Shown here: piece after piece, positions 21,905 to 49,800 of the stretch
Layout of the letters: each line of letters starts with the position of its first letter
Position numbering within the stretch: position 1 is the first letter of the stretch
Assembly: GCA_001600175.1 (NCBI GenBank)
Contig: BCJC01000001.1
Coordinates: forward strand, 4,511,652 to 4,575,651
Source: Erythrobasidium yunnanense
Taxonomy: Eukaryota > Basidiomycota > Cystobasidiomycetes > Erythrobasidiales > Erythrobasidiaceae
DNA: 64,000 nucleotides
Reading direction: 5' to 3'
Position numbers and translations under genes: made by a program
Notes under the pieces: generated by a model
Seen by the model: only the letters and a program-made list of their open reading frames with translations
Database searches by the model: none
What the model was told of the DNA's origin: nothing

Positions 21905-22268
21905 CTTGACTGTATTACCGTACTAGCGCTCGTTGTACTTGTGTCGTAATTGAATCTCTGCTCAGATCAATCTTGCAGCACTATGGGCTGTGAGCTAAGC
22001 TATCGAACCTTGCTTCTGCATCCTGAGCGTATGCGTAATGCTTGCAATCAGCCGCAGCCTCGTACGCGCGATTCTCTTCAGGCTTGGCATCCTCGCGCTC
22101 TCAGGAGATTCGGATATGGAGGTCTAGCTGCCGCGTTAGTGATGAAAGGAAGAAATATATACTGTGAAGAGACTCACTGTCCTTCAGCTAGCCTGCGCTC
22201 GTTGCGAGCCAGCATGCAAAGCTTAGCCGGCTACTTCGCTTCGAGTTTTCGACTACGGCTCTGATATT
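21905..22268. other. Intergenic region
   Basis: About 360 bp between orphan copy 2 and COX16, which converge. A short open frame at 21950-22264 (+) has no recognisable features and is not called. Confidence 0.5.
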
Positions 22269-22619
22269 CTACTTCCCGCTCTCAGTAGGAGGTAGACCCC
22301 ATTCTGCCTGTCCAGGAAGTCTCGAGATGCGCTTGTTCTCCCAATTCTCGAGGTCTCCTTCTTTCGCTCTAAGCTTGAAGTACTCCTCCCGTATATCGAC
22401 CTTCTTCCTAGCCTTGTTCATCTTGAGCTCATCTTCTTTACTCAGTGTCTGGATCTTGCTCTCTCTCAGATCATAGCGCGTACGAGTTACGGATGAAAGA
22501 GCGAAGGACCCGAAGACGAGGATGGTCATGAAGGGTAGCCCGAAGTAGAGGAAAGGACGGCGGCGTGTCTTGCTGAGAACGGGAGATGCTTGAAGCCGCT
22601 GCGATGCAAAGACAGCCAT
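22269..22619 (-). CDS. COX16: Cytochrome c oxidase assembly protein Cox16
   Basis: Small mitochondrial inner-membrane protein needed for cytochrome c oxidase assembly (Cox2/Cox1 maturation). Single exon, 116 residues, the usual size. An N-terminal basic stretch precedes RRRPFLYFGLPFMTILVFGS, the conserved single membrane segment. Then come TRTRYDLRESKIQ, DIREEYFKLRAKEGDLENWE and ENKRISRLPGQAEW, all matching the family. The Met chosen opens the stretch that resembles Cox16; an upstream in-frame Met would add 24 residues that do not. Confidence 0.9.
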   Translation of the reverse strand: MAVFASQRLQASPVLSKTRRRPFLYFGLPFMTILVFGSFALSSVTRTRYDLRESKIQTLSKEDELKMNKARKKVDIREEYFKLRAKEGDLENWENKRISRLPGQAEWGLPPTESGK

Positions 22620-22829
22620 GCTTAGGTAACCTGAACGATGAGAGTAAAGGCAAACTGTGCCAAATTGATGATAGGCTAACATCTCTATCATTACCCTATA
22701 TGTTGGACTACGATTATGATGACTACTGTTACGACAGGCACTGCCTATATGCTCGGAAGTATAGCCCTGAATATCTTCATACCCTAACTGCCGGTTTGAT
22801 GCATCTACACTACTTGTACATATGACATA

Positions 22830-24553
22830 CTATAGCTCTGTAATGCAAGGAAGTGTCAGTTGCGACCAGTCGTCGGAGGTGAGAAGCGTAAAAGGACAGA
22901 CCTATACGCATCCCTTGCTCTACTATCAGAAATTCCACTCCCAACTTGTGTTCTTGCTCTAGGTCCAGCAACTCGTCTCTTATAACATCCCTTATGCTCT
23001 CTGGTACGATACCTTGCTCTGCTTGTCGAATGTCCGGTCAGCTGGGTCAGCCTTACCAACAAATCTGTACCCACCCCGCCGCAATGAGGACCGACTCGTC
23101 GATATGGCTTGTTCAAGTTCTTCGATACTTGTCAGATCCTTGATATGTATGACCGCCACTGGCGTCGGCAGTTCTCCAGTCAGCTGGAGTATTCAATCGG
23201 CCACTAAGAGGCAGACGCACCAGTGATGCCTTTCAGCCGACCTGTCGAGTCATCCTGAGACTGCCCCGCCGTTGGCGGTAAGAACGAGGCGAGTACGCGT
23301 AGTTCTTCGAATATATAGGGAGGTGATAAATGGCCGTATAGCTGCGCTTTCGGCCGTGATGACTGCGTATATATAACTCAGTACGAATGCATACTTACGA
23401 GAAACGTGCGGACCGAAAGCATACCGTGTATGAGCATTCGATAAATATCGTAGATAACCGTCGTGCCTTTATCCGTAGGGCGGCCTCCTGCCAAACTTTG
23501 CGATTATATTGTTCTCCGGAAATAGAGTCTGCCAAAATGAAAGAAGACCAGATCAGATCAACATCTCAGAACCTGAGTAGACAGCTAGATTGCCTTACCA
23601 GCTTCAAGATCGCCAAAGATGAGGAAGCCATTCTGCGTCTCCTCATTCTCAAAAAAGAATGCGCTGGATGCGTACTGCGACTTGTTGTGGTGCGTCCCAT
23701 GGCTTATCGGTCTTGCGGATGCAGTAAGGCCTTTCGAGGGTTTCACTTTTGCTTCGCCTTCCGTTCTGCAACGAAATGTGCTTGATTAGATCGTGGCAAG
23801 CAGGATAGTCGAACGCTGTGGACTTACGCTTTCCAGACGTAAGGTACGCCATTCGCAGCTTCGTAGCTCCCCAGAACAGGCCATAGCCCGCCATTCATGG
23901 CGGCCGACAGATTGCCTAGCGTTTGTTTTGAGCCATAGACTGACTTCTGCGAGGCACCGGATCCCGATGCGAGTACCAAGCCCTGCGATATAAAATCAGC
24001 TTCTAATCCTTGCTAAATCGCAATGGCCAAGCGTAGCGTACAGAGATGTGATCTAGAATATATGACGAAACGTAAGATAATCTGCGTGAGTGAGAGCGCT
24101 GCAAGCTGCACTCACCCCAGTGTGCATGTGTGATAATAAAGCTCCGAAGAAAGCTAAAGATAAAGCCAGCATTGGCCAAGGGAGACCCTCTGTTACTTTC
24201 CGGCAGATCAAAGTCTGCGAAGAGTGCAGGCGTCTTTTCCAACAAGCGTGTGAGAGCTCCCAGACATGACCCTGATGATAAACAAACAAGGGGAGACCAA
24301 ATCAGAGGGGAAAGTCGGAGTAGGCAGCATAGCGAGCGAATGTACCGCCATCCACAGAAGTAAAGCCATCACTCCATGGCTGATTCGTAGGCTTGACGAG
24401 ATATGCTGATAAGTTGTCTTCTGCTGGTCCCCCGCCGCATCCCAGGACAAGCATATCGAAGCTGGGCTTTTCCGACAATTTCACAACATTGTGACGGCTC
24501 CTTGATGATTGCGCAGACGGAACAACTGCTTCAGAATCGCCGGCGCTGCCCAT
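22830..24553 (-). CDS. PDE1: Class II (low-affinity) cAMP phosphodiesterase
   Basis: Hydrolyses cAMP; a class II metallo-beta-lactamase-fold phosphodiesterase acting in cAMP/PKA signalling. Ten exons: 24346-24553, 24116-24271, 24042-24052, 23828-23982, 23599-23765, 23425-23528, 23221-23362, 23075-23158, 22902-23012 and 22830-22837, giving 381 residues. Motifs: FDMLVLGCGGGPAEDNLSAY, the metal-binding HAHWDH (residues 118-123), NGGLWPVLGSY, SSAFFFENEE with FLIFGDLEADS, IFIECSY, HLSPPYIFEEL and the end EQGMRIEL. The 11-nt exon 3 supplies Asp and His of the HAHWDH motif. The last exon codes only the end of Glu, then Leu and stop. Confidence 0.93.
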
Positions 24554-25074
24554 TTCATGCAGTTTCTTTGTTGTTTGAGCTTCGCGGGACGACGATTTGA
24601 CTGATTTGTTACGTTCGCAGATCTTCCAGGCTTGATCTACGCTGATGGATCATGCTCGCAGCTTCTGCCCAACCTGTTTCTACTGCTTCATGCCCGCTGC
24701 GCCCATATGCTCGTCCCGCAAGTTCGAAAGTGACCAAACGCTGCAGGAAACTCGAAATGCACGAAAGCTATGTCACTCCAGATTCTGCTGTATTCGCGTA
24801 GTACGAGCAACGAGCAAGATACACTTTTCTACACCCATTTGTACTGCGACAGCAGATCCCGTTAATCAGGGGCAGCGCATGTCTCGGATACTGCAAGTTT
24901 CCATATACGAAACGAGTATAGCGCAGTCCACAAAACGTGGCATGCAAACCACCCTCTGGGTCACCTTCACTGAATTACACATGCCTTTCCTTTCTACAAC
25001 ACCAGTACTGAATGCGCGGTTACATCAGATTAGTAGACTGGGAGGATAGGCAGCTAGGAAGCTCCGTTGATAGC
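24554..25074. other. Intergenic region upstream of PDE1
   Basis: About 520 bp between the PDE1 start and the end of cystathionine beta-synthase; both genes are on the minus strand. I searched it for C-terminal CBS (Bateman) domains of the latter gene and saw none. An open frame at 24645-25049 (+) has no recognisable motif. Confidence 0.45.
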
Positions 25075-26921
25075 CTACTCCTGCAGTAGCCAAGGCTTCG
25101 TGATATAGTTGCGAATGCTGCGCAAACCAAGACAAAATCTCAGCTTCACCCCAGACGTGCATACATCTTGACAATGCGGGCTTACCTATCGGGCATGAGC
25201 ACGACGACATTCCTAGTGTCGTCCGCAGCGATGGCCTTCCCTTCCTCTGTCTCTGTCAGCCAGCGTATAGCGCCTGCCATTGCGCAACCGCTGGATCCGC
25301 CTACGAGGAGCCCTTCTGTTCGAATAAGCTGGCGGGTCATCTTGAATGCAGCATCGTCGTTGACTTTCAGCCATGAGTCAACGAGCTTCCTGTCCAGCAC
25401 ATCCGGGATAAACTCGTAGCCTGCGGTCGCAGCTTCAGCTGGCTTCCTGAATGAATGTTCACCAAGCTGTGCTCACCAATACCCTCAACCTTGTAGAATG
25501 CGCTTTCCCCATCCTTCAGCTCGTTCAGCGTCTCCGGCTGCGCGAGTATGCTACCTATCGGATCGATGCCTACGACCGTAGCATCGCTCCACTCTTCCTT
25601 CAGCCGCTTACTTGTGCCGCTGATCGACCCTCCAGTCCCTGCTCCAGCAAAGAACACATCCAGCTTCCCATTCGAGGCTCTCGAAGCCGATCCATTCTGC
25701 GCAGGCTTCAAGAGCTCATCTTTCGTGTTCACTGCTGGCTCTTCGCTGTGTCCATTGGCGGAAGTTGTGGAGGGCAGTCCGCCTAACATGCTGCTCATGT
25801 CCAGATACTTATCGAGCGTATTTCCTCGCGACCTCGTCTTCGTCTTCCCAGGTGAATTCGTTGAGCTTTCCTTATCAGATTCTCCACTCTTCTGTCTCTC
25901 CATATCCTTCGACGCTGTTCCAGTTCCAGTTCCAGGCAAGCCGGCTAAGCGACTTGATCCGTTAACCAATCGATCCAAGGTGTTTCCTCGTGGTCGAGTG
26001 ACGGGCTTGATATAGGTCGACTTGATATCTGTTATGATCTCTTCGGCTGTTCCGTAGTAATGCGCTAAGGGGTTGGCAGTGTTGACATATTGATCCAGCA
26101 CGATACCATGTGGAATCTCCTTCTCCAGTCGCCGGGCCACCTCTGAGCAAGACATTCAGCTATGACCAGCTGCTGCGATGCATCAAACTTACGTATGTGA
26201 GACCGAGGATCGTCATAGGCTGCTTCCGTAGGTGTGCGAACGACTTCTGCGCCGAGACTGACGGTATTGAAACCTTCAGCTCATCGCGATGTGGCTCCAA
26301 GGATGGCCGACTTACGCCTGCAAGACGGTCTGTTTCTCCTGTGACATCTTCTCCGGTAGGCAGATGATGCATCTATACCCTCTGACAGCGCATGCCATGG
26401 CGAGTGCAATGCCCGTATTTCCGCTTGCTGTAGAACGATCGCGTCAGCTTAGCCCACTGCTATAAGAACAGTCCATCTTACTAGGCTCAATGACGACGCT
26501 CTTACCCTTGATCAAGCGACCATCCTTTTCGGCCTGCTCCACCATTCGGCGACTGACAATTAATTAGCAACGCAGCTCAGCTTGCGCAAAGATGTACCTA
26601 CCCAATACGGTCCTTGACGCTTCCTCCAGCGTTGAAGTATTCTAGCGGCAAGCCTTAGTATCAGGTTGCATCGCGAGCTCGTCATGTGACGCGACGTACC
26701 GCATTTGCAATCTACAGTCTCAAGCATCAGCGTTTGCACGCCGGGGTAGTGATTGTACCTACATAGATTGCACTTGATGCCATACTCCCTGGCCAGCCTG
26801 TCTACACGGACCTGGGCGACAGCTCAATCCATTAGCCGGTTGTTTGAACTCCGCTTTTGACAGGCAGCGTTTTCACCATGGGCGTGTTGCCAATATGCTC
26901 GAGGACATCGTTTAGAATCAT
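25075..26921 (-). CDS. CYS4: Cystathionine beta-synthase, catalytic core with large insert
   Basis: PLP enzyme that condenses serine and homocysteine to cystathionine in transsulfuration. Ten exons: 26877-26921, 26763-26811, 26700-26711 (12 nt), 26602-26641, 26482-26552, 26316-26427, 26193-26257, 25477-26142, 25186-25420 and 25075-25117, giving 445 residues. Conserved: [28 protein letters not shown] (PLP lysine), [61 protein letters not shown] and GGSSGC. Two oddities: about 115 extra residues (173-288) between GTAEEI and the GAGTGG loop, holding two copies of an R-x-R-GNTLD motif; and a stop right after [15 protein letters not shown], with no C-terminal Bateman module. The N-terminal start is approximate. 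Confidence 0.9.
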
Positions 26922-27120: not shown

Positions 27121-28377
27121 CTACATTACAAGCTCAACCTCTGAGTCTTCGATCTTCGGGTCCTGCTGTTCCTTCACGTACTTGGACTCCGCTTGTACCT
27201 GAAGAACGCTCGAAAATAGATGGTCTTCCGCGTTAATGACGACCACATCTTCTCTATCGACATGCGAGCCGCTCCTGATGGCGACAGCGATAGCTTTCGC
27301 TTCGGCTAAGTAGCCAACACGGTCTGCGTCCTGCATCGACAGCTTAGTGCTGCGCGACTCTGATAGAAGATCTGCTTACAGTATATCCTGCCGCCAAACC
27401 GCTTGTAGACGGGAGTGCGACCAGCCTGACGAGATGCCTGCCATCATTCGAAGGACCTGGAATCGAAATGATTACATTCTGTAGTCCTAGCTGTACGTCA
27501 CTTGTAGACTGCTTGCGCTTCGAAGGAGATGCCGGCGAGGTGATGTCGCCGTTCGCTGGGGTCTCGCGCTTGACAATGCGTTGTCGCTGTTCAGGCGATA
27601 TGCTCGCTAGCAGGTGTCTCCGGAAATTTCGATACACGTCCATGCCCACGAAGCATACTCTAAAAGCAGAGACCTCAGCTTGCGAACGAGATTCAAGGCT
27701 TGAATACTAACACAAGCGGCCGCCATGTGATCATCTTCTGCAGAGTCTTGACTGCTCCCGCTTGGAACTCCAGACTTGGCACCTGATCCGCTCTAGCCGT
27801 ACATCTCTGTACGCTGTCCGTCAAGCCTAGCTTATATTTGACAGGCATATCAGGCGATTCAGATGGGTGTAGGCGGTGAGGTGTGAGACCGGCTTCGTGA
27901 AGGACTCGATAGAAGCGATTGGAAGGGTGTGCATAATGGTAGCCGAGCTCAGAAGAACGTACGCCAGGATTGCAGCCGCAGAATAGAACTGCAAGGTTAT
28001 GAAGTCAGTTTGTAAAGAGGGGCGCAGCTTAGGCGAGACCTACTGTCCAAGTCCTCAGCGAGTCGATCAGGGACTTCTTTCATCCCTTCATACTGGCCTG
28101 TATCCATTATTTTCCGCTTCTTGCTACTTGAAGTCCGGCTCTTTGGCTTCGGACGCGTTTTACTAGTTGGCGTGGATGGCTCCTCCAGCTTGATATTATT
28201 TTCGAAGCCTTGTGATGTGGATGGAGACGGTGCAGCCTTATGCTCCAGCTTACTTGGTGAAGAGCTGGCAATCCGCGTAGATCTTCGCTCGGTAGGCGTT
28301 TCGGACGAGATGAGGTGGTCAAGACTGCTTCCAAAGGAGAGGGTATATTCTGCTGCATCTTCATCCTCCTGCTTCAT
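27121..28377 (-). CDS. G/T(U)-mismatch DNA glycosylase (TDG/MUG family)
   Basis: Base-excision repair enzyme removing U or T mispaired with G, similar to animal TDG and S. pombe Thp1. Four exons: 28044-28377, 27712-27988, 27380-27659 and 27121-27330, giving 366 residues. The catalytic segment DILFCGCNPGVRS and the following HYAHPSNRFYRVLHEAGL match the family active site (the GINPG region has GCNPG here). FVGMDVYRNF and LVRLVALPSTSG follow. The N-terminal 110 residues are charged and Lys/Ser-rich, as expected for a nuclear protein with a DNA-contacting tail. The start could lie further upstream in a spliced exon, since the frame stays open past Met 1. Confidence 0.85.
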
Positions 28378-28748: not shown

Positions 28749-30510
28749 TTACTTCCTTCCAGGTACCTTCATGCTGAACTTAGGTTTGCCTCTTCCATTA
28801 GCAGGCGGTGCGATTTTCGCTTTCTTCTTCTTCTGAACCGGCTCTTCCGCTTCAGACTCGCTGGAATCAGCAGCCTCGTCCAGCGGTATCGGCTCGATAT
28901 CACTATCGTCGTCATCCGGCTCTTCAAATAACTCTTCCTCGTCGCCGATCTCGTTTTGTCCTCCAGGTCCGTCTCCTTTCAGATCTCCATCTTCGCCATA
29001 CATATCTTCATATTCGAACTCGTCCACTACGTCTTCTTCACTCTCTTCTTCATCCTCATCCTCATCGTCCTCGCCTGCGACTGAGCCAGAAGCTTTGCGC
29101 TTCTCGGCTTTTGCTTGTTTCTTCGCTTCGAGTTCTTGCTTCTTTCGCTTGACGTTCGCTTCTTGTTGCTCGCGTCTGGACTTTGCAAGCTTCTCACGCT
29201 CTTTGGCCTTTCGGGCAGTCTCCGCAGCTTCTTTAGGTGTTTTGTGGATGAATTCGTGGAAAAGGACCTCGCCTTTCCCGTCTCCGATACCATCTTCGAT
29301 CTTCACTAGTCCTAGTTCGATACGCGGCCCGAGTTCCGTCAAGCGTACCGCGCGCTTCTCGCTGCCTGTATTGGATGCAAGTCGCTTGTTCGCCCGCCCG
29401 ATATAGGCGCCTGCAAGTTCTACCTGTCGCGATTCTGGCCCTTCCTCCTCGCCTCCGCTCGCATCTGACTCCGCTTCACTAGCAGAGGACAAGAAGCCCA
29501 TATCGCCGTGATTCAAAATGTAGTCTGAAATATCCTTTGCACTTCGCAGATCTGGCAGACCTTTCGCTCGTAACGCAGCGAAAGATGCTTGAGATGAGAC
29601 GTCCGATGGAGCTGCTGAATATACACTTGATGCGCGCTTTTGCCTGCTGCCTGACGTGCCATCGATGATCTTGCGAATGGAGCGTGAAACACCGACAGGT
29701 CGAATCGTAATCAGGTAATGTCTGAAGTCGATAGTGCGGGTCGTAGGGTTATAAGATAGAAGAACAACTCTTCGTGCGCTGGATAAGGGCATGCTATGTA
29801 CCCTGATCGGAGGGAAGAGGTTTTGAAACATCGTTTGGAGAAGCGTGAGTTGTCGGGCATCGTTAGTGTTATTGGAAGCGGAGAAGTTGTTGAGAATGAG
29901 CTGAAGACACGAACATCAGACTAATGCACCTGCATATGATGTGCGAATGCCTTACAATAGGTTCGGTTGCAAACTCCTTGCCTGGACTTCTAGGTCTCTT
30001 AGTCGCAGCCAGTATATCTTTGACCAAAGCATATCGCAGTACTTTGAAACCAAGTGTAGGACCTCTAGGCAGTCTTGTTATGCGAAGATTGACATTGCTT
30101 GCTGGGTCTTCCTTGTCGTCCTCGGCCAAGCTCTTGTTCGCCTCGGATTGCGCCAGAACGAGCATATGTGTGACATGGAGTGGTCCAGACATTGCGATAA
30201 AGTCCTTACTCTTGTTGCTCTTTCTTTCCTGTTTACACGAAATCAGCATATTGTCTATATACTCCAATTTTCCAGCCCAAACCTTCAATCTTGAAGCTGT
30301 ATTGGGCTCAAGGACTCTTCGTAGATCCTTCGAGAGCTGCTTGACGCTGTTCCCGACTTCGCCAGCATGCACGACGAAGGATTTTGGTTTTCCATCGCCG
30401 ACCTTTTTGGCCGTATCTGCCTTGATGTTGTGCGTCCGAGTCTTGCGCTGTCACCGCACATTAGGCGTGCTCTGTATCTACACGTTAAATGTACTCACTC
30501 GGCGCGCCAT
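28749..30510 (-). CDS. SSF1: Ribosome biogenesis protein Ssf1 / Peter Pan (Brix domain)
   Basis: Brix-domain nucleolar protein of 27S pre-rRNA processing (60S assembly). Three exons: 30499-30510 (12 nt, MARR), 29956-30447 and 28749-29900, giving 551 residues. The N-terminus MARRRKTRTHN is typical. The Brix domain includes SFVVHAGEVGNSVKQL, DLRRVLEPNTASRLK, GPTLGFKVLRYALVKDI, FQNLFPPIRVH, LLSYNPTTRTIDFRHY and GPRIELGLVKIEDG. A Lys/Glu-rich coiled coil and an acidic tail end in a basic segment. It diverges from the mitochondrial carrier with about 210 bp between start codons. Confidence 0.93.
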
Positions 30511-46858: not shown

Positions 46859-49800
46859 TTATGGCGAGAATGCCTTCTTGACCTTCTGGAAGAAGGAGGA
46901 CTTGCGCTTCCTATCAGCTGGAGTGGCTGGGGTGGACGGAGCAGTCTTGTATGCGCCGTCTGTGTGAGCACTTGCAGGCGTACCAGCCTCCGCTACACCA
47001 GACTTCTTAGGCGTGGTAGGAGGAAGGGAAGTAGCTGCTCCTGCACCAGATGCGACGCCGAGGCTAGAGCCAGTCTCCTTCTTTGCAGCTCCTGGTACGG
47101 CCGTTGAAGTTGTAGATGGCTTGGTCTTGTCAGCTGCAGCTGTGCCGGTCACACCGCTGGCTGTAGCTGCGGATCCTCGCTTGGCCAGATCGGCTGTAGG
47201 TGTAGACAGCTTCTTGTCGTTGTCTGGCAAGATTCTCGAGCTGGGGGTAGAGGAGCCCTTCTTGGGCGTGCTGGGTGCACTTCCAGTAGTAGTAGGTACA
47301 GGAGGCGTAGTGGTGGTCTTGGCAGAGTCGTCCTTGGAAGGATCGATCTTGGAGACTCGTCGCTTCAGCTTATCGGTGAAGCTACTTCCTTCCTTCTTGC
47401 CGATGGTGCTGGCAGGCGTGGCTGTAGTCTTGCTATCGGTGGCAGTACCAACCGAAGTAGCTGGGACAGTGGGCACGGTCTGCTTCACCTCGCTGGCGAC
47501 CTCCTTCTTTAGCTCGGCAGGAGCAGCTGTCTGACCAGATGATGCTCCGGTTGCAACGTTGGAGCCTGTGACTGCACCGGCAGGAGCTGAACCTTGGCCG
47601 GTACCAGTAGATGTAGCAGGCACCGTAGGGACGGTCTGCTTGACTTCGCTTGCAATTTCCTGCTTCAACTCTTTGACAGCAGAGGGCGCGGCGGTACCAT
47701 TAGGACCGGACGATCCTGTGCCGATGTATGAACCAGTTGCTGCTCTTGGTGAAGCTTCTCTGGTCTCGCCATAGTATGATGGCTTGCTGGAGTCGCTCGC
47801 TGTGCTGGTGTTTGTAGCGGTTACGGGAGCAGGGACTGGAGCTGCGGAGCTTGACAGAGCAGGAGCGATGCCGCTTGAGGCTGTTGGTGAGAAAGCGCGG
47901 TTAACTGAGCGTCAGTAAGAGGGTCGGTTGCAGTAGTGGTTTTGTTGGAAATCATGAAAAGGACAAGGGGAAAGAAAGCAAACTCACTCTTAGCTGAAGA
48001 AACTGGGGCAATGGAAGAGACCCTACCCTCTGCGCTAGCTCCAATGCTGGCAAGGGCGCCAGCGATTGCACCTCCGAGAGACTCGACAGCATGTGTGACT
48101 TCCAACTTTGTGTGCTGCAGGTCGACGGCACCGAACTCCTTTGCGATCTTCGCTACTCCATCGTTGGTGGCAATGGGTGCAAGAGCGGCTGCGGGCTCTT
48201 TGGGGCTCGAAGCTTGTGCAGTGGGTGCTGGATGAGCTTTCAAGGCCGAGCTGACCTGAGTTCCAGAAGGAACGGTCGGTACGGATGCCTGAGAGTTCTG
48301 GAGACCGAACGCTGGAGTCTGCGTAGCGGTTCGTGGACCCTCGCTAGCTACTGTTCCGGTCGTGTGTGCATCACCCTCGATCGCATGTACAACTCGCTCA
48401 GCAGCGTGCTGGGCAGCGACAGTAGCTGCAGAAGCGATGTGAGAGATGGCACTGAAGAGGCCTTGTCCTTCTTGGACGTGGGTGCCGGGTGCTACAGGTG
48501 CATCGCGAGTGGGAGCTGGCAAAGGTGCTTTTGTGCCGGTAGTCGAAGTGGAAGAAGGTACAGCAGTCGCTGAGCTTGTGTTGGTCGACTTCGAGACATT
48601 GGCAACAGCATCACGAGCGCTTTCCTTCGCAACAGCTGCAGCGCCAGCGACACCGCCAGCAACGACACCAGCAGCAGCAGCGATACCGGCAGCAGCAGTA
48701 CCAACAGCATTGCTAGCAGTCTCCGCTGCAGTGTTTGCTGAAGGAAGGTTACTCGTTGCGCCTTGCAAAGTGGATGCAGGAGATCCTGCAATGTATGATC
48801 CGGTTGCTGCTTTTGGTGTAGCCTCTCGAGTCTCGCCGAAGTACGATGGCTTGCCAGTCGCGTGAGTAGCGTTGGATGAAGTAGATCCTGGTGCAGTAGT
48901 ACCGTTGGGGACCAGAGCGACGTTGGACTCGGTGCCCGTGACACCAGAATGGGACAGATGAGCCGCGTTCGCATCGGTCTTTGCGGTACCAGCGGAGTTG
49001 GCAAGAGCGTGCTTGCTCTCTAGAGTAGGTCCTGCGAGATCTGTCTTTGCGAGATCTGATAATCCGGAACATCAGTCACTGTCAAGGCTCGCTTTGTGAA
49101 AGACGGCCTACCGCGATCTGATACGCCATGACCGGAAGGAGTAGCTTCCACGACACCAGGAGCGACCTTTTCAACCTTATCTGTTACTGGCTCGGCAGTG
49201 GAGCTGCCGCTTCCGACAACACTATGACTGTTTGGCGGGAGAGCAGTTGGAGAGCCGACTACTACTGGTTCTTCTCGAGGATTTGACGTAGATCCAATGA
49301 CTGGGCCATCCAAAGCCTGCTTCTCTGGGACTGCGAACGAGATTTTGGGATTTAAGCAGGCTGGACGGAGAAAGACCTTTGAGACTGGCGAATTTTGCCT
49401 ACCTTGGAACACGTTGTTGACTAGTCCATCACTTCCAGTCTCTGTAGGCTCGCTATCGACGGTCTTCCACTCGCCGTTGATGATGTACTGTTGTTTGCGA
49501 AATCAGCGCCTTCTTCAAGCAGGAAAGCCAGGCCTTTGACGGCGCGGCTGGACGCAGAATATGTCTGACCTTGTATAGCACTTTCTGGCCGTATGGTAGA
49601 TCCTGTTGCACCGTGCGAAACTATCAGCGCTCGTTCTTTTGGGCTTTGCATTTCCCTTTGAGCTGGGGCTGTTGAGATGGCACTCACGACCGAGGTGATG
49701 AAGTAGAGGCCAGGAATCTTGGTTAGGACATGACGGCCCCTGTTAGAAGTACAGAAAAGCAAAGAAAAGCCTTAGAAGACCGTCTTGACAGTGGACACAT

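Follow-up and report, generated by a model that had tools for sequence, protein, structure and literature searches.

The window, a 64,000-nt stretch of fungal genomic DNA, carries on its minus strand a gene of 10 exons that, judged from its sequence, encodes a cystathionine beta-synthase (CBS), a fold type II PLP enzyme (Table 1). It is followed on that strand by a gene that looks like a class II cAMP phosphodiesterase (the yeast PDE1 type), with two PF02112 matches that are below the cut-off and collinear (profile 30-97 and 187-223) and a spliced THAHWDHIS motif. A link between the two genes was considered and dropped, as it rested on adjacency alone. Upstream of the CBS gene lies an ORF that matches the uracil-DNA glycosylase superfamily, and the window also contains ORFs for a Brix domain protein and COX16 and an imperfect CAG-rich tandem repeat. 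The COX16 and Brix ORFs, together with the shortness of the introns, are consistent with a fungus. The tRNA and Rfam scans each returned 0 matches.

Table 1. Features of the CBS gene and other features of the window (positions are those of the window)
Feature	Position	Strand	Details	Basis
CBS gene	25075..26921	(-)	10 exons, 445 aa	splice model, PF00291, TIGR01137
CBS exons 1-5	26921-26877, 26811-26763, 26711-26700, 26641-26602, 26552-26482	(-)		splice model
CBS exons 6-10	26427-26316, 26257-26193, 26142-25477, 25420-25186, 25117-25075	(-)		splice model
CBS last exon	25075..25117	(-)	then stop codon TAG	splice model
Exonic low-complexity insert	25673..26035	(-)	residues 168-288 (121 aa), flanked by helix GTAEEI and the next strand	
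Repeat unit 1	25928..25999	(-)	residues 180-203, candidate phospho-Thr186 (25979-25981)	
Repeat unit 2	25766..25837	(-)	residues 234-257, candidate phospho-Thr240 (25817-25819)	
Class II cAMP phosphodiesterase-like gene	24553 to ~23580	(-)		PF02112, below cut-off
Uracil-DNA glycosylase superfamily	27693-28004	(-)		PF03167, E 1.3e-08
Brix domain ORF	28752-29915	(-)		
COX16 ORF	22269-22829	(-)		
CAG-rich tandem repeat, imperfect	48645-48709		periods 15, 18, 33; within a 416-codon minus-strand ORF	

The nine introns of the splice model are all GT-AG and 49-68 nt long. For intron 1, two donors are possible: position 26876 yields the 445-aa protein, which aligns with human CBS without a gap at that spot, whereas position 26861 yields a 450-aa product with a five-residue gap against human CBS. 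The residue numbering of the original prediction, with repeats starting at 180 and 234, is that given by donor 26876. The protein matched PF00291 with an E-value of 1.6e-68. With the 450-aa model, TIGR01137 (cystathionine beta-synthase) ranked at the top of 34 NCBIfam models with 437 bits, below its curated cut-off of 510.25 bits; this 457-position profile spans a tail that is absent here, which may account for the shortfall. Identity to the human CBS core amounted to 181/309 aligned residues. The catalytic core proved to be intact, as had been predicted: the PLP lysine (K45), the asparagine loop (N76), the phosphate loop (G300-S304), the GIGY loop (G352-Y355), and the equivalent of human Ser349 (S396) are all retained, and judged by these residues, the enzyme should be catalytically competent. 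The haem segment of human CBS is reported to comprise residues 38-74 (PMC10995199); residue 2 of the window CBS aligns with human Ile76, and the enzyme is therefore without a haem segment. The CXXC cysteines are replaced by W and A, and neither feature of the animal haem-CBS (N-terminal haem-binding segment, CXXC) was found.

The C-terminal regulatory tail is also missing. The Bateman domains (PF00571) were not found in the protein, nor in the 18 of the 24 downstream minus-strand ORFs of >=50 aa (22253-25255) that were scanned; this search took in all 10 ORFs between 24003 and 25255, and a domain broken up by introns could escape it. The phosphodiesterase-like gene seems to start at about 24553, leaving little room after the CBS stop. 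The earlier claim that the protein ends directly after its core, with no Bateman module, thus agrees with these scans. Among the 15 closest prokaryotic relatives, 11 end right after the core, 311 to 320 residues past the match start, and none carries the insert; the two of these 11 that were scanned against Pfam (L002 and L006) lack PF00571. The other four (L001, L004, L005, and L007) extend to 446-454 residues past the match start and carry PF00571. In 11/11 core-only CBS-type prokaryotic relatives whose tails were compared, RNY-x-[TS]-K is followed by a [FH]xx[DN]xW stretch, and at the C-terminus of the window CBS, within the last exon, this stretch is shortened to PWLLQE. The CBS enzymes of Trypanosoma cruzi and Leishmania major are reported to have no Bateman module (PMC7474069), and the lack of this module is thus already known elsewhere and is not new. 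Because human CBS deprived of its regulatory domain is reported to be an active core (PMC9081730, PMC7277093), a tail-less enzyme can work. Furthermore, because tail-less protozoan enzymes and tail-less prokaryotic enzymes without the insert exist, the short tail and the insert need not be linked.

The insert lies wholly within exon 8, between I167 and N289. No frame-preserving intron candidate was found in exon 8 when a GT[AG]NG donor, a branch-like YTRAY 10-50 nt before the AG, and a length of 40-420 nt were required, and a frame open over the length of the insert occurred in only 15/5000 simulations from its own dinucleotides. The insert has a Ser/Thr/Gly-rich composition, its fraction of order-promoting residues is 0.17 versus 0.35 in the remainder of the protein, its charge and hydropathy place it on the disordered side, and it had no Pfam family match at E 1. 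In an AlphaFold2 model of exon 8, built with 20 prokaryotic relatives, pLDDT was <50 at residues 202-288, residues 168-175 extended the preceding helix, and a weak short helix appeared at residues 186-191. Because this is a fragment model (mean pLDDT 59, pTM 0.43) in which part of the core end (336-341 and 343-353) is also <50, the low pLDDT of the insert is weak evidence of disorder. The extra disordered Ser/Thr/Gly segment originally placed at residues 173-288 corresponds to residues 168-288, a low-complexity segment between GTAEEI and the phosphate loop that is exonic in the splice model and predicted to be disordered.

At this site, the loop measures 4 residues in 35/35 prokaryotic relatives, all taken from one scan of prokaryotic genome contigs (15 near eukaryotic CBS and 20 more distant; the frames of L027 and L034 stop prematurely, downstream of the loop), versus 121 in the window CBS. 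Loop lengths in solved CBS structures, obtained by subtracting match coordinates, were 4 in 5mms, 7xrq, 6xwl, 5ohx, 3pc2, and 4ofx (the human, Candida, Toxoplasma, honeybee, fly, and Coxiella enzymes, respectively) and 9 in 6c2h (yeast). The entry 7XRQ is named as C. albicans CBS in PMC11506715. Yeast Cys4 and C. albicans CBS have the eukaryotic CBS core in common with the window CBS and differ from it in this loop. The site thus tolerates a small length change in yeast, and nothing near 121 residues occurred among the structures and relatives compared. IMG/VR scans with exon 8, the core minus the insert, and a two-row alignment yielded no confirmed relatives. A CBS insert is not mentioned in the titles and abstract openings of open-licence PubMed Central papers on fungal CBS, tail loss, and phosphorylation, and the peptide RGNTLD returned 0 papers. 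Passages of a paper on Ganoderma CBS (PMC11024145) and of a review on enzymes of the fungal methionine pathway (PMC11506715) give no account of the domain architecture of CBS.

Within the insert, a 24-residue unit occurs twice. The two copies share 15/24 identical residues and align with a score of 74, far above that of 300 shuffles (mean 21, s.d. 5, maximum 46), so that the two units of about 22 residues with an R-x-R-GNTLD core that had been described were recovered in slightly longer form. Over the 24 codons, the differences between copies amount to pS 0.91 versus pN 0.33; the values are 0.88 versus 0.12 in the eight codons of the RxRGNTLD core and 0.91 versus 0.50 in the 16 codons 3' of it. 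This comparison covers 24 codons of one gene and presumes descent by duplication. Silent sites are saturated and the RxRGNTLD core is retained, suggesting that the peptide has been under selection, and this is the strongest evidence available that it matters. Conservation between the units extends past the kinase core to SSxLxGLP. A search of all six reading frames of the window with four patterns of the unit gave matches confined to the two units, apart from one R..GNT at 21928 that is interrupted by a stop. Against the PDB, a 28-residue peptide spanning unit 1 had 0 matches at E 10.

Thr186 and Thr240 both stand in RxRxxT with Leu at +1 (RPRGNT-L and RSRGNT-L). Sch9 and Ypk are fungal kinases with a preference for RXRXXS/T. 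The same motif is the consensus of Akt/SGK (PMC6824681), and the AGC-kinase consensus originally recognized in both units fits it. The 57 other ORFs of 150 aa or longer (12922 aa; some are not genes) contain 35 RxRxxS/T sites, of which 9 have a hydrophobic +1 residue; two such sites per 121 aa occurred in 228/6082 background windows. Shuffling the insert itself gave two or more sites in 104/20000 cases. PKA-type sites and 14-3-3 mode I/II motifs were not found in the insert. Human CBS is reported to be phosphorylated at Ser227 by PKG, with increased H2S output (PMC7277093, PMC11942099); the corresponding position lies about 14 residues upstream of the insertion point and is Ala in the window CBS. 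In yeast, TORC1-Sch9 is reported to control transsulfuration and H2S via the cysteine level and CYS3/CYS4 expression (PMC6814617). According to the results of that paper, CYS4 overexpression restores H2S in the rapamycin-treated wild type but fails to do so in the sch9 deletion; the abstract claims the rescue in both backgrounds, and no weight is placed on this rescue here. By analogy, the PKG site and the control by TORC1-Sch9 make a kinase reading plausible.

The intact core, the open insert, the duplication, the peptide conserved against silent change, and the missing tail, all read from the gene itself, would best be explained overall by a haem-less, Bateman-less CBS with a disordered tether that is regulated by an AGC kinase and bears two old copies of a motif, a reading to which we assign a probability of roughly 0.42. 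In such an enzyme, the helix-to-strand loop just before the PLP-phosphate loop would have lengthened by about 117 residues to form a regulatory tether, disordered in the cell, with the 24-residue unit as a short linear motif in two old copies. An AGC kinase of the Akt/SGK/Sch9/Ypk type would phosphorylate Thr186 and Thr240; in one phosphorylation state, the units would engage either a partner or the surface of CBS itself, and through this binding growth signals may alter the activity, stability, or location of the enzyme. Counted against this explanation are the conserved SSxLxGLP, which goes beyond what a kinase site needs, the Ala at the Ser227 position, the background frequency of paired sites, the absence of PKA-type and 14-3-3 patterns, the small basis of the selection comparison, the weakness of low pLDDT as evidence, and, by analogy with yeast, the reported effect of Sch9 on CYS3/CYS4 expression rather than on Cys4 phosphorylation. 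The original reading, in which regulation passed from an allosteric domain to phosphorylation of the insert, thus stands in part: the insert, the duplication, the missing tail, the consensus, and the retained peptide support it, whereas the conserved unit is longer than the motif, paired RxRxxS/T sites also occur in the background ORFs, and tail and insert need not be linked. A transfer of regulation from tail to insert is unproven, as the order of the two events cannot be drawn from one sequence.

Because the conserved unit extends past the kinase core, the main rival is that the units form a tandem docking motif for another protein, LDxxLxxSSxLxGLP-like downstream of the basic core, that would recruit CBS to a partner or a place, with phosphorylation incidental or absent. 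A docking motif fits the 24-residue conservation, including SS-L-GLP beyond the kinase core, about as well as a kinase site does; the low-confidence short helix predicted at residues 186-191 is consistent with it, and the 54-residue spacing of the copies would lend itself to two-handed binding. However, the 8-residue core is better retained than the 16 codons that follow, and neither the solved chains nor Pfam offered a match, leaving no known partner to name; we regard docking as somewhat doubtful. It is less likely still that a permissive surface loop has tolerated low-complexity growth and that the units are an old duplication devoid of a regulatory role. The different loop length in yeast (9 versus 4), the Ser/Thr/Gly-rich composition, and the lack of a family match would suit such an expansion, but neutrality predicts replacement changes about as frequent as silent ones, and the core is almost unchanged while silent sites are saturated.

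The insert, the short tail, or both may also be usual and conserved in CBS of the fungal group to which the host belongs, for which we see not far from an even chance. The fungal enzymes compared were two (6c2h and 7xrq), which favors this possibility, although the feature is absent from both and, as described above, the insert is unmentioned in the openings of the papers searched; a group-wide feature would be compatible with a function and overlaps the other readings. An error in the gene model, by which the insert would be an intron or an extra exon would add a Bateman module, appears very improbable. In favor of such an error, a GT-AG stretch of 71 nt with branch-like sites starts at 25078 and overlaps the stop codon; however, the 121-codon frame is open, exon 8 offers no frame-preserving intron candidate, the frame of the possible extra exon (24866-25024) had no Pfam match, and the phosphodiesterase-like gene seems to begin at about 24553.

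The window CBS resembles the closest known systems in part and differs from each of them. Human CBS has a haem segment, CXXC, and a Bateman module (PMC9081730), and the window CBS has none of these and has the insert. Yeast CBS is likewise reported to be without haem (PMC9081730), but a C-terminal regulatory domain, absent here, is reported for Cys4 (PMC10995199). The T. cruzi and L. major enzymes and prokaryotic L002 and L006 are Bateman-less like the window CBS, and L002 and L006, unlike it, have a 4-residue loop. Akt/SGK substrate sites are defined by a 6-residue motif, whereas the unit described here is conserved over 24 residues and its sites are candidates. We regard the window CBS as a novel form of a known enzyme, with a loop that is probably phospho-regulated or docks a partner.

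CBS occupies the branch point where cysteine/H2S production departs from the methionine cycle, and AdoMet regulation is reported not to be notable in yeast CBS (PMC7474069, PMC10995199). It seems unlikely, though conceivable, that in this lineage CBS lost its tail and gained a doubled phospho-switch in the catalytic domain, tying cysteine and H2S to a TOR/Sch9-type kinase. In a CBS with two conserved kinase-consensus sites inside its catalytic domain, two point mutations could test whether a kinase controls this step directly.
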